Of a stretch of 64,000 nt of DNA, positions 26,036 to 34,545 are shown piece by piece. The notes under the pieces are model-generated. The model saw nothing but the letters and a program-made list of their open reading frames with translations. It did no database searches and was not told the DNA's origin. Position 1 is the first letter of the stretch. Every line of letters begins with the position of its first letter. The position numbers and the translations under genes are program-made. The stretch comes from a virus: positions 1 through 64,000 of IMG/VR virus record IMGVR_UViG_3300025889_000115; one strand, written 5' to 3'.

Positions 26036-26275
26036 CTACTCTATTCGCCAAATCCTGTAGCCCGTACCGTTGGGCTCTTTGCGTGACCGGTACTTCATAC
26101 CTCTGTGATACATAGCGCCGCGCACCTTCTCGTAGTCCGATTCTGTGGTTGCCGAAAGGCAATCCCCGACCTCCATCTGGTCAAGTATGTTCCACTTGCC
26201 CCGCTGAACGCCCGGCACTGGCAACCCTTTCTCAAGGAATACTATTACCTGACCGCACTCGTTGCATCTTTGCAC
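26036..26275 (-). CDS. Zinc-ribbon protein with GD-YRIWR C-terminal domain
   Basis: 79 residues. The GTG at 26275 is chosen because AAGGAGG lies 5 bp upstream; unit B has TTG at the aligned place with the same site. An N-terminal CNEC motif is followed by a domain of about 45 residues (MEVGDCLSATTESDYEKVRGAM, then GTGYRIWRIE). The latter resembles the C-terminal half of the protein at 27697. It is the last gene of the leftward recombination operon. Confidence 0.7.
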   Translation of the reverse strand: MQRCNECGQVIVFLEKGLPVPGVQRGKWNILDQMEVGDCLSATTESDYEKVRGAMYHRGMKYRSRKEPNGTGYRIWRIE

Positions 26276-26423
26276 TACACCCTCCTTGCAAATCATGGCA
26301 TAGGACGTGGTTGTTCCCATTCGCAATCCACGTTCCATCCATGACATAATGGTCCTTGCCGCAGAAAACACAGCTAACCTTTCTCGTGTCTTTCTTCTTG
26401 GTTCGCGGCCCTCTTCTCTTCAC
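26232..26423 (-). CDS. Small zinc-finger protein
   Basis: 63 residues with a GTG start behind GGAGG. Cys motifs CVFC-x(17)-ANGN-H-x-LC and GGC suggest one zinc site (C-x2-C ... C ... C). The reading frame overlaps both neighbours. The unit B protein (62 aa) preserves the same Cys spacing and the YVMDGTW segment, which supports coding. Function is unknown. Confidence 0.65.
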   Translation of the reverse strand: MKRRGPRTKKKDTRKVSCVFCGKDHYVMDGTWIANGNNHVLCHDLQGGCSAKMQRVRSGNSIP

Positions 26424-27549: not shown

Positions 27550-27697
27550 CCTTTACCTTTCCTTTGTGCAAGTGGTCTGCCATAAGGTGCATGAAGACAG
27601 TCCAAGCCGCCTTCATGTCTAGGAAGTCTTGCTCGAGCGCCGTGACACAGCGCTCAAGCTCATCCAGCCTCTGCTGGCGTTCTTCCTCCTCCGACAT
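27542..27697 (-). CDS. 51-residue coiled-coil protein
   Basis: MSEEEERQQRLDELERCVTAL is a short coiled coil, followed by a conserved C-terminus (DMKAAWTVFMHLMADHLHKGKV). The ATG overlaps the upstream stop (TAATG) and the end overlaps the annealing-protein start by 8 bp. The unit B protein has a different coiled coil but an identical C-terminal helix, so that helix is the constrained part. Function is unknown. Confidence 0.68.
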   Translation of the reverse strand: MSEEEERQQRLDELERCVTALEQDFLDMKAAWTVFMHLMADHLHKGKVKDE

Positions 27698-28020
27698 TAC
27701 AGGGTTGGGGCCACGCGGCCGTTTGAAAGCTGTTGCGCTTTGCGCCTAGCCTCTGCGGCATAGTGGTTTACAAAAGCGCTCTTGGACTTGCGCCCATCTA
27801 CACGCCACACGCGGTAGCCATCGTCTGTTCGGCGGGAAACATACGACAGCTTGTTGTTTGACAACGCCTTGATGATGCGCTTGTAGATGACTTCGTTAGG
27901 GCAAAGGATGCTGTCGCCGGGCTTCATCTTTAGAGCCAGCTTTGTCTCCTCACTGGCATGGCGGCCCGGGCCATTGCCACGGTTAGGGATAGGGATGTTG
28001 CGTTCAATTTTAAGTGTCAT
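27697..28020 (-). CDS. Small conserved protein, GDS-YRVWR domain
   Basis: 107 residues. After a basic N-terminus, residues 32-76 read MKPGDSILCPNEVIYKRIIKAL, then YVSRRTDDGYRVWRVDG, a compact domain repeated in the protein at 26036. The ATG has GGAGGG upstream. The unit B copy (60998-61255) is shorter at the C-terminus. It may bind DNA or RNA or regulate the operon; this is inference only. Confidence 0.72.
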   Translation of the reverse strand: MTLKIERNIPIPNRGNGPGRHASEETKLALKMKPGDSILCPNEVIYKRIIKALSNNKLSYVSRRTDDGYRVWRVDGRKSKSAFVNHYAAEARRKAQQLSNGRVAPTL

Positions 28021-28962: not shown

Positions 28963-29160
28963 ATGTTTATTGTTTTTGATTCAGATGAATTGCTAGACTG
29001 CGAAAAGTGCGAGGGGAATGGTGTTATTCCCATTGACTTATACGAGCATAGCGAAATAGGGTTTGACATCACCCGCAGCTACTCATGGGAGTGCGGCGTT
29101 TGTGGAGGCGAGGGCAAGCTGATGCCCTATTTTGAAATCGAGTATGATGCCGAGGCATGA
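28963..29160 (+). CDS. Small protein with two CxxCxGxG-type motifs
   Basis: 65 residues (ATG 28963, AGGTG upstream). The repeats CEKCEGNG and CGVCGGEG match the zinc-binding motif known from DnaJ-type zinc fingers, so one zinc ion held by four Cys is likely. The unit B copy (67 aa) keeps both motifs. It heads a short rightward block with the resolvase-like gene, divergent from the recombination operon. Role unknown, possibly nucleic-acid or protein binding. Confidence 0.75.
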   Translation: MFIVFDSDELLDCEKCEGNGVIPIDLYEHSEIGFDITRSYSWECGVCGGEGKLMPYFEIEYDAEA

Positions 29161-29725
29161 GCAGATTCGCTGCCGGTATGCACATTGTGATGACGATGTG
29201 CCTGACGGCTGGGCGGTTTACCCGCTGGACGGGTGGCATGGTGCCAAAGGCTATGTTCTGTGGAGCGAACACATGACCAATGGACGTGCAAAAGGCGCTC
29301 AGTTCGAGCGCGACGTGGCCCGCATGTGCCACAGTTCTCTAGGCTTCGATGCGAAACGAGACCTCGAGCAATACAGAAGCGGCGACCGAGGTGACCTGAT
29401 TGGGGTGCCTGGCTGGGTCATAGAGTGTAAGCGTTATGCTTCGGGCTCGACATACAGAGATGAGTGGTGGGCGCAAGTAACCAAGGCGGCGGATGCTGCC
29501 ATGTGTGAGCCCGTTTTAATTTACAAGTTCGACCGCCAGCCTGTCCGCTGCGTGGTGTACCTGTCGGCCATCAACCCCGACTATTGGGGCAAGGACGACG
29601 TGGCCACGGTTAGCTTCGACACTTGGTGCATGATTGTCAGGGAGGGATTGACAGATGAAGACCGCAGACCAAATGACCCTAGAGGAGTTTCGCAACCTGT
29701 TGTCAGAGGTAACGGCTCCGCCTAA
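29147..29725 (+). CDS. PD-(D/E)XK Holliday-junction-resolvase-like nuclease
   Basis: The nuclease core starts MTNGRAKGAQFER (ATG 29273, SD GGAG) and contains AKRDLEQYRSGDRGDLIGV and VIECKRY. The D-(x)n-E-x-K signature with G-FER is that of Hjr-type resolvases. Upstream codons back to ATG 29147 (CRYAH-DD-VP-G-VYPL-GWHGAKGYVLWSE) differ from unit B mostly at third positions, so they are translated as well. The long form is 192 aa and the short form 150 aa. It likely resolves branched DNA before packaging. Confidence 0.8.
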   Translation: MPRHEQIRCRYAHCDDDVPDGWAVYPLDGWHGAKGYVLWSEHMTNGRAKGAQFERDVARMCHSSLGFDAKRDLEQYRSGDRGDLIGVPGWVIECKRYASGSTYRDEWWAQVTKAADAAMCEPVLIYKFDRQPVRCVVYLSAINPDYWGKDDVATVSFDTWCMIVREGLTDEDRRPNDPRGVSQPVVRGNGSA

Positions 29726-30057: not shown

Positions 30058-30081
30058 GGGGGGATATTGCTAATCGCCCCC
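30058..30081 (-). terminator. Hairpin at the 3' end of the HNH gene
   Basis: A G5/C5 stem with a loop of about 13 bases overlaps the HNH stop codon. Unit B has a slightly longer version at 63294-63317. No U tract follows, so it may be a weak or factor-dependent terminator or simply an mRNA-protecting stem. Confidence 0.3.
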
Positions 30082-30960
30082 TTCCCATGTCGGCGGTGTG
30101 TGGTCCGGTCCGTAAAACTCCTCCGGCATCTTGTTGTTTTTTGCTAGGTTTTCTTCTGCGGTAATCACTTGCAGATTCCACGGTACATGCAGCCCCCAGA
30201 CGGTTTCCCCTTTCCTTGGGTAGTAATGGTCAACGTGGTGCCTTACGCCGGTCTGGCGCGTCTTTCTCGCGGCCTCTTTGTAGAATGGAGCGAAGACCTT
30301 CGGGTCAATGCCCTTTAGCGTTGCTTCTCTCAAGTACCTTCGGCGCAGTTGCGCCTCAAGCTTCCGCTGCTCTCTGTGTTCGATGTCCTCCGCCCACCGT
30401 TCCCGCTGGCGCGTCCGGTGCCGTTCTTTGCGCTTCTGTTTCTTTTCTTCGGGGACATCCACGAAATAACGCTGGTAGTGTTCGCGGTGCAGATTGGGGT
30501 TTTCCTCAAAGCATTTCTTGCGCCACTCTCTATAACGTTCTCTGCCGCCGCGCTCGTGGTAGTATTCGTAATGAGATTGCAGGACTTTCTCGCGGTTCTC
30601 ACGCTTCCATCTCTTTGCGCTTTCCTTTTGACAAGCTACGCAATGCCCATAAGGCAGCATCCTTTCGGACAGGTGCCCTTTGGGGCAGGGTTTACCATTG
30701 AAGTAGAACCGTTGTCCGGCTTTCTCTGCCTCCTGCCGGGTCATTATCTTCTGGCCAATCTTAGCCTCTAACTCTGCGACGTGCCGCGCCCGCGCCTCTT
30801 TCCTTTTCTTAGGGCATCTGTTTTTGTGCCGGTTGCACTCTGTGCAGACGCCCGGCCCGCTGACATGTCTCGGTGCCACATGCCCGTTCTTGCACGGCTT
30901 GCCTGTGAAGTAAAATTTGAGCCCCCTTTCCCTAGCCTCCTGTTTAGTGATGATTTCCAT
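30070..30960 (-). CDS. HNH endonuclease with duplicated N-terminal zinc-binding module
   Basis: 296 residues. Two copies of a Cys-rich module ([22 protein letters not shown] and [22 protein letters not shown]) occupy residues 1-110. A long, extremely charged helix follows. The C-terminus has an HNH-type core: [11 protein letters not shown], then [19 protein letters not shown]. The paired zinc modules resemble DNA-recognition modules of phage HNH nucleases. It may be a homing-type nuclease or a packaging-associated nicking enzyme. The nearly identical partial copy in unit B argues for stable residence. Confidence 0.82.
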
Positions 30961-31010
30961 GTCTGTGCCTCCTCTTTACAGACGTTTTGAAATGTGATAT
31001 TTGAGTTTCT

Positions 31011-31167
31011 CATTGTCACGCGGCAGACATGTAACTGCCGTGTCATTGTTGCCGCAGTGTCATTGCTGACACAGAAACAAAACAAATCTATTTCTAAAAA
31101 AGACATTGTTCAGTCATTGCGATGCAGTACTGCTCCAGCAATGACATTGCAGTAGCAATGACATTGC
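31011..31167. promoter_or_regulatory. Palindrome-rich intergenic region (operator or origin candidate)
   Basis: The 226-bp gap between the HNH and XRE genes holds seven CATTG elements (starts 31011, 31044, 31061, 31104, 31115, 31145, 31162). Two of them form perfect 13-bp palindromes GCAATGACATTGC at 31138-31150 and 31155-31167, 17 bp apart. There are also a 16-bp palindrome GTGTCATTGCTGACAC (31057-31072) and GCAGTACTGC (31124-31133). The spacing and symmetry suit a dimeric repressor, most simply the adjacent XRE protein, or replication iterons. Confidence 0.65.
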
Positions 31168-31186
31168 CAGAGATTTTTTTTAGATT

Positions 31187-31360
31187 TTATTTTTGCTCCA
31201 GTTCCAAGGCTTGCAGCGCCAGCTCTACAGTACGCGGTATGTCATGTTCTCCGCTTTCGTAATACTGGACGGTACGTCTGGCCAATCCTAGTCGTTCAGC
31301 AAAACTCTGCTGTGTGTGGCCAAGCATCTCCCGCCTGTGTTTCAGGTCATTAGCGGTCAC
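31187..31360 (-). CDS. XRE-family helix-turn-helix regulator (Cro-like)
   Basis: 57 residues with a GTG start at 31360 and AGGAGG 8 bp upstream. It is almost entirely an HTH domain: LKHRREMLGHTQQSFAERLGLARRTVQYYESGEHDIPRT fits the XRE pattern (helix 2 TQQSFAERLG, recognition helix ARRTVQYYESG). It overlaps the upstream gene by 11 bp. It is the last gene of the early leftward operon and directly upstream of the palindrome array, which it probably binds to control the HNH transcript or the early genes. Confidence 0.82.
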   Translation of the reverse strand: MTANDLKHRREMLGHTQQSFAERLGLARRTVQYYESGEHDIPRTVELALQALELEQK

Positions 31361-31586
31361 TGCCCCATACCTCCTTTTTCTCTATCCAGTGTGGCTCGGA
31401 TGCTGTCACCACCTCTGCGATGGCCCAGCTTGAGATGCTGTACTCGCCAGGCACATAGTCCTTGCTCTGTCTTTTCTCTATGACGGCTTGCGCTTCTTCA
31501 AGCGTGTCTGCCAGTTCGTAGTTGTCCCGGTAGCTAGGTCCGCCATGTGTGCGGCTAAACTCCAGCGTGGTTACGATGATGTACAT
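31350..31586 (-). CDS. Small early protein of unknown function
   Basis: 78 residues. A beta-strand start (MYIIVTTLEFSRT) is followed by YELADTLEEAQAVIEKRQ, a pattern of small phage proteins with one alpha/beta unit. A GGAGG site precedes the ATG. It belongs to the 31.2-34.3 kb operon of overlapping small genes. I recognise no family. Confidence 0.62.
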   Translation of the reverse strand: MYIIVTTLEFSRTHGGPSYRDNYELADTLEEAQAVIEKRQSKDYVPGEYSISSWAIAEVVTASEPHWIEKKEVWGSDR

Positions 31587-34496: not shown

Positions 34497-34545
34497 GCAA
34501 CAGTGTTGCCCTGGCGCAACAGTGACATATCCGCAACAGTGTTGC
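34497..34545. promoter_or_regulatory. Operator array of GCAACAGTGTTGC palindromes
   Basis: Perfect 13-bp palindromes at 34497-34509 and 34533-34545 flank a half-matching copy GCAACAGTGACA at 34516-34527, at 17-19 bp spacing. The array sits in the 405-bp gap (34261-34665) between the divergent GP88-like and TerS genes. The outer arms GCAA-N5-TTGC are the same as in the 31138/31155 palindromes. A regulator of the early/late switch is the likely ligand. The remaining gap (34546-34665) is GC-rich and shows no clear promoter. Confidence 0.65.

Follow-up and report, generated by a model that had tools for sequence, protein, structure and literature searches.

The window, a stretch of 64,000 nt covering positions 1-64000 of a virus record of 64,029 bases, carries a short gene for an XRE-type helix-turn-helix (HTH) protein, followed by a non-coding region rich in short repeats and then by a nuclease gene. 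The following features were recognised at this locus, with the strand in brackets where one applies.

31350 to 31586 (-): 78-aa protein with no function assigned, overlapping the XRE start and conserved together with XRE
31187 to 31360 (-): XRE-type HTH protein of 57 aa (ORF and profile match), with a GTG start that overlaps the preceding 78-aa gene
30961 to 31186: non-coding control region of 226 nt between the XRE and nuclease genes, with nine CATTG/CAATG elements, of the GCWWWGWC type
30975 to 31003 (+): predicted sigma70-type promoter TTTACA-N14-TGA-TATTTG with an extended -10, reading into the array
31010 to 31181 (+): short RNA predicted on the strand opposite the XRE and nuclease genes, its start and end placed from the promoter and the dyad/T-run
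31011 to 31015 (+): CATTG element located at the predicted transcript start, unchanged in 16 of 16 aligned close relatives
31021 to 31040: inverted repeat CGGCAG-8 nt-CTGCCG, 20 nt
31057 to 31072: dyad GTGTCATTGCTGACAC (GTGTCA-TTGC-TGACAC)
31124 to 31133: 10-bp palindrome GCAGTACTGC
31133 to 31172: 40-bp dyad made of the two 13-bp palindromes and their flanks, stem of the predicted terminator
31138 to 31150: perfect 13-bp palindrome GCAATGACATTGC, copy 1, exact
31155 to 31167: perfect 13-bp palindrome GCAATGACATTGC, copy 2, exact
31174 to 31181 (+): T8 run after the dyad, predicted intrinsic terminator tail
30070 to 30960 (-): endonuclease VII/HNH-type nuclease (phrog_1035, 2.5e-19) in a variable slot after the array, replaced in relatives
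29132 to 29725 (+): PDDEXK_15 phage endonuclease facing the array, whose homologue abuts the promoter in relatives without a slot gene

The repeat array and its genome

An earlier note on this DNA had described a 57-residue HTH protein beside a 226-bp non-coding region. Both are borne out: the protein matches Pfam HTH_3 (PF01381) with E=2.5e-8 and 34.3 bits against a curated cut-off of 23, as expected of an XRE/Cro-type regulator, and the gap to the next gene is real. An AlphaFold model of the protein fuses its helices (pTM 0.42) and was set aside. The seven CATTG elements that had been counted lie on the plus strand (31011, 31044, 31061, 31104, 31115, 31145 and 31162), and two CAATG elements, equivalent to CATTG on the minus strand, bring the total in the gap to nine. 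Dinucleotide shuffles of the gap (n=2000) contain a mean of 1.42 such elements and never reach nine (0/2000), and the densest 150-bp stretch of the whole window falls in the gap, with 8 elements vs at most 5 elsewhere. The two perfect 13-bp palindromes, 17 bp apart, and the 10-bp palindrome were also correctly described, while the reported 16-bp palindrome holds for its pairing arms and fails at its 4-nt centre, which is not palindromic. The 40-bp dyad with its T8 run, the 20-nt inverted repeat and the extended -10 promoter come in addition. The region is thus genuine and conserved, and contains more than first described. A global regulon was considered and rejected, as exact copies of the palindromes occur within the 64 kb only at the array and near-matches stay at chance level.

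Two related podophage genomes, units A and B, lie head to tail in the window (DNA 70-89% alike), with T7-like structural genes for a portal/head-tail connector, a major head protein, internal virion proteins and a tail fibre. Judged by the large terminase, HTVC010P-type pelagiphages (51-52% identity) are the nearest isolates. Three contigs (G013, G014 and G010) join unit B to the window's 30.8-36.4 kb stretch at ~100% identity, and the last 117 bases of the record are identical to 30677-30793; unit B thus probably closes into a complete circle of ~33.2 kb (30793-64029), to which the array would belong. The 64-kb record is, on the same sequence grounds, probably chimeric, two related phages having been joined in assembly, with the A-B join (near 30.7-30.9 kb) an artefact and the array assigned to unit B.

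Searching IMG/VR with the XRE protein (P0001) yielded 22 close relatives, in all of which the array directly follows the XRE stop; they share the half-site, and the spacing is almost constant. Conversely, the tandem-palindrome pattern matched 19 of 2.9 million contigs, every one of them beside this XRE (19/19), and the three close relatives without the tandem signature form a clade in which CAATGCATTG replaces CAATGwCATTG. The palindromes, on whose conservation in unit B and relatives the earlier note had staked its proposal, are thus conserved in relatives, and the unit B contigs carry the same array. No XRE relatives were found in 84,980 cellular genomes, and the isolate phages searched gave only weak HTH matches.

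A wider search returned 71 XRE relatives, whose subfamilies carry other repeats (GCTATGCA, GCAATGCA, GCTTAGCAAGTTATA and ATGCTTAACAAGTT) in the same place or one small gene further. Most array families fit GCWWWGC or GCWWWGWC, with 3-7 copies per 200 bp vs ~0.2 expected from the rest of the locus (GCWWWGWC in the window family: 6 vs 0.16, P=2e-8), values that describe enrichment and are no independent test, the motif having been derived from these same arrays. The exception is the ATGCTTAACAAGTT family, which does not fit GCWWWGC. On the XRE tree, array types change 7 times, close to the minimum of 6 and far from the shuffled mean of 24.6. Such a change of repeat type with XRE subfamily supports, without proving, binding by XRE, since neighbour linkage alone could yield the pattern. 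Two loci, L092 and L087, differ in their repeats despite nearly identical recognition helices, and the most remote XRE matches (L068, L069 and L140-L144) have no array.

The gene after the array is far less constant. Endonuclease VII/HNH types, GIY-YIG, a C5 methyltransferase, an acetyltransferase or no gene at all occupy this slot among relatives, and in locus L022 the nuclease is deleted while XRE and array are kept. Nuclease homologues found elsewhere without XRE lack the array; an operator specific to the nuclease was rejected on the grounds that the array persists while the slot gene changes and that these XRE-less homologues are without it. Where the slot is empty (L085, L125, L129 and L134), a PDDEXK_15 endonuclease gene shares the promoter's strand and runs nearly up to the -35 box. 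The transcription unit proposed below would therefore sit between convergent genes, and such surroundings speak against a function linked to a single nuclease and against plain antisense action throughout the group. The HNH/endonuclease VII slot types (30070-30960 and relatives) share their ends and differ in their middles, in the manner of an exchange slot.

Signals for a predicted reverse transcript

The predicted promoter of the window is weak by consensus (8/12 bases) and was called via homology; it is unique in the window, and only this uniqueness counts, as the extended -10 pattern was derived from these same sequences. Throughout the window family, TT(T/G)(A/T)CA-N14-TGN-TATT(T/A)G is conserved in the same place, with constant spacing and a spacer sequence that differs between subgroups. 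In 25 distant loci, scored on both strands, TTGACA-16-TATAAT or TTGACA-16/18-TAAAAT lies opposite XRE with 11-12/12 consensus bases, and no sense-strand site scoring >=11 was found in the loci that were rescanned whole. Gap shuffles reach the observed promoter score 0-4 times per 400. TTGACA-N16-18-TAWAAT occurs exactly once per record in 12 of 14 related records (contigs up to 35 kb), always at the array, and is missing from the remaining two, which belong to the window's own family; the same pattern read backward, as a control, gave a single match in all 14. The arrangement known from lambda pO-oop, in which the gap that follows the regulator holds a reverse promoter, is thus found in the relatives and, in a weak but unique form, in the window. 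In every contig checked it reads through the array toward XRE and then toward the large terminase gene.

In the clade of L087, L089, L105 and L111, the promoter spacer holds a perfect DnaA box TTATCCACA, the sole perfect copy in each of the four records and invariant while the surrounding spacer varies. The arrays with the box inside the spacer are those of L089, L087, L105/L109 and L111; none was found in the window array or in most other families.

A terminator-like hairpin with a T-rich tail lies near the XRE stop in most families and is clear in the window (31133-31181); L021, L022 and L095 have no clear terminator, and L112 and L127 only a weak one. A simple strict terminator scan of the window found none, probably because the stem holds mismatches. 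At L022 (5174-5374) the dyad is a perfect 32-bp palindrome, GGTGCATTGCATTGTATACAATGCAATGCACC; relative to L021, both dyad arms have changed together, the large dyad being kept and the small palindromes lost.

The predicted RNA would measure ~170 nt in the window and roughly 125-190 nt across families, and it ends a few bases short of the XRE stop, avoiding overlap with the regulator coding sequence. It found no match in Rfam 15 at gathering score; the matches at relaxed thresholds, mostly to eukaryotic microRNA/snoRNA models far below cut-off, were discarded. In most members the region folds far more strongly than shuffles (z -4.7; about -1.5 to -7.5 across members), about equally on both strands, and the strand assignment therefore rests on the promoter and the T-run. 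Read on the mRNA strand, two mismatches of the window dyad become G-U, and on the proposed RNA strand C-A, which, together with the equal folding, makes the structure no proof of an RNA. A 5' hairpin at the RNA start was dropped, because its dyad spans the predicted start site, so that a transcript would contain only part of it.

A candidate reverse transcription unit and its competitors

The array is conserved, and the promoter-like and terminator-like signals stand to it in a fixed order and orientation. The reading that we favour, to which we give an even chance, is that they form a terminated reverse transcription unit gated by XRE through operators within it, resembling lambda pO-oop or plasmid Cop control. 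The array would consist of iterated binding sites for the adjacent 57-aa XRE, inside a short unit opposite the XRE and nuclease genes. Transcription would start from a host sigma70 promoter (30975-31003, +), run through the array and stop at the dyad/T-run terminator beside the XRE stop codon. XRE made from the early operon may then repress or time the reverse promoter by binding these sites, of which the first overlaps the predicted start. By analogy with lambda pO-oop, the short RNA could tune expression across the region or nearby replication.

The closest parallels are found in lambda and in plasmid pIP501. In lambda, the reverse promoter pO lies near the origin, has DnaA sites downstream and influences replication (PMC3985674), and the oop RNA ends at tO, overlapping the 3' part of cII by 52 bases (PMC5869508). 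The likeness of the lambda cII-pO/oop/tO-O segment lies in a small regulator gene followed by a reverse promoter, a short RNA and a hairpin terminator at the regulator 3' end, and, for cII-O, in adjoining replication genes with DnaA sites near the promoter (PMC3985674, PMC5869508). Unlike oop, the RNA predicted here stops short of the regulator gene, and the gene downstream changes from relative to relative and in some families has the opposite orientation. We know of no comparable repeat array in the oop region. In the copR-RNAIII-repR segment of pIP501, the small repressor CopR (92 aa, vs 57 aa here) is paired with a 136-nt reverse RNA, RNAIII (vs ~170 nt here) (PMC4981023); however, no rep gene follows in the phages, and CopR binds upstream of the rep promoter, whereas the present repeats come after the regulator's own gene.

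Two further comparisons are more distant. Like Aca repressors, the XRE protein is a small HTH protein ending a run of small variable genes, with a match to Aca1 limited to the HTH (E 2e-4, residues 14-52), but its repeats stand after the operon, not before it; candidate counterparts of the inverted repeats that precede an acr-aca operon are the palindromes upstream of the early operon described below. The HTVC010P-type pelagiphages are podophages of ~34-36 kb with a similar overall gene layout, yet in HTVC010P the genes that seem to correspond meet without a spacer, and the search turned up no relative of XRE.

The main competitor is a replication origin, which the earlier note had also raised. 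The repeats would then be iterons and the AT-rich stretch an unwinding element; the backward promoter would activate the origin by transcription or supply its primer, and initiation would be under the control of XRE, or of another protein, together with host DnaA. We consider this proposal unlikely, if not strongly so. Iterated sites and an AT-rich stretch are indeed present, as at iteron origins, and in most families the former flank the latter. The backward promoter is strong in relatives, one clade carries the invariant DnaA box, and the lambda pO adjoins the origin, with DnaA binding downstream of it (PMC3985674). Initiation by the host is likely, given that no polymerase, helicase, primase or integrase was matched among the early genes tested. 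Against an origin stand the missing DnaA box in the window array and most other families, the lack of an initiator match among the genes tested nearby, and a GC skew that shows no turn at the array and follows the coding strand only, so that the skew analysis suggested by the earlier note gave nothing. To our knowledge, a 57-aa XRE protein is also not a known initiator type. Origin and reverse transcription unit are not mutually exclusive.

That the array is a repressor operator, as the earlier note proposed, fits its constant position after XRE and the change of repeat type with XRE subfamily; that it should be nothing else agrees poorly with the promoter and terminator signals. An array serving solely as XRE operator for the nuclease/recombination operon promoter, the reverse-strand promoter and terminator being fortuitous or else a terminator that works in both directions, could draw on the conserved ribosome site ahead of the slot gene, but the sole near-consensus promoter, a single copy in nearly every record, points in the opposite direction, several families have no gene directly following on the XRE strand, and L022 keeps XRE and array without the nuclease; we judge it quite unlikely. 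The direction of the promoter recalls another lambda arrangement, PR'-6S RNA-tR', where a strong promoter makes a short terminated leader RNA and points to the late genes. A late-operon leader of this kind, terminated until antitermination opens the way to terminase and late genes, is highly improbable here: the promoter does point to the large terminase gene, and the late genes lie on the same strand 3-4 kb downstream, but 3-4 kb of oppositely oriented early genes intervene and no antiterminator was identified. Chance repeats or an assembly artefact have next to no probability, as the array recurs in independent contigs from many samples, which already contradicts what the chimeric look of the 64-kb record might suggest.

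If the XRE-gated reverse unit is taken further, the locus may, tentatively and with considerable doubt, represent a new family of phage regulatory RNA/replication-control elements in HTVC010P-related podophages, in which the single consensus host promoter of each genome would drive a short repeat-built RNA, gated by the 57-aa XRE and, in one clade, by DnaA via the promoter box. For the question of how replication is started and timed in phages without a recognisable polymerase, helicase or primase among the tested genes, this locus of ~250 bp offers a concrete small target: it contains the contig's only near-consensus host promoter, together with an array that tracks XRE and, in one clade, a DnaA box. 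It occurs in a group of uncultured marine-type phages, and its layout appears to resemble the lambda region that controls replication genes. The array families with their different repeats also form a natural set in which to follow changes of operator spacing and sequence by small XRE proteins.

Other observations in the early region

The small early-operon genes gave no strong family match in profile comparison, and no near-consensus promoter was found for the early genes. Two early proteins of ~110 aa (26036-26371 and 27697-28020, both -) matched no known family and look like paralogues, with 29% identity over 73 residues. The 13-bp palindrome GCAACAGTGTTGC occurs in two identical copies, at 34497-34509 and 34533-34545, in the divergent region between a GP88-like gene and the terminase side; both copies have the same GCAA-N5-TTGC frame as the array, and GCAACACTGTTGC is present at the corresponding place in 5 of 11 relatives. 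They lie upstream of the early operon and are possibly an operator of the early promoter.
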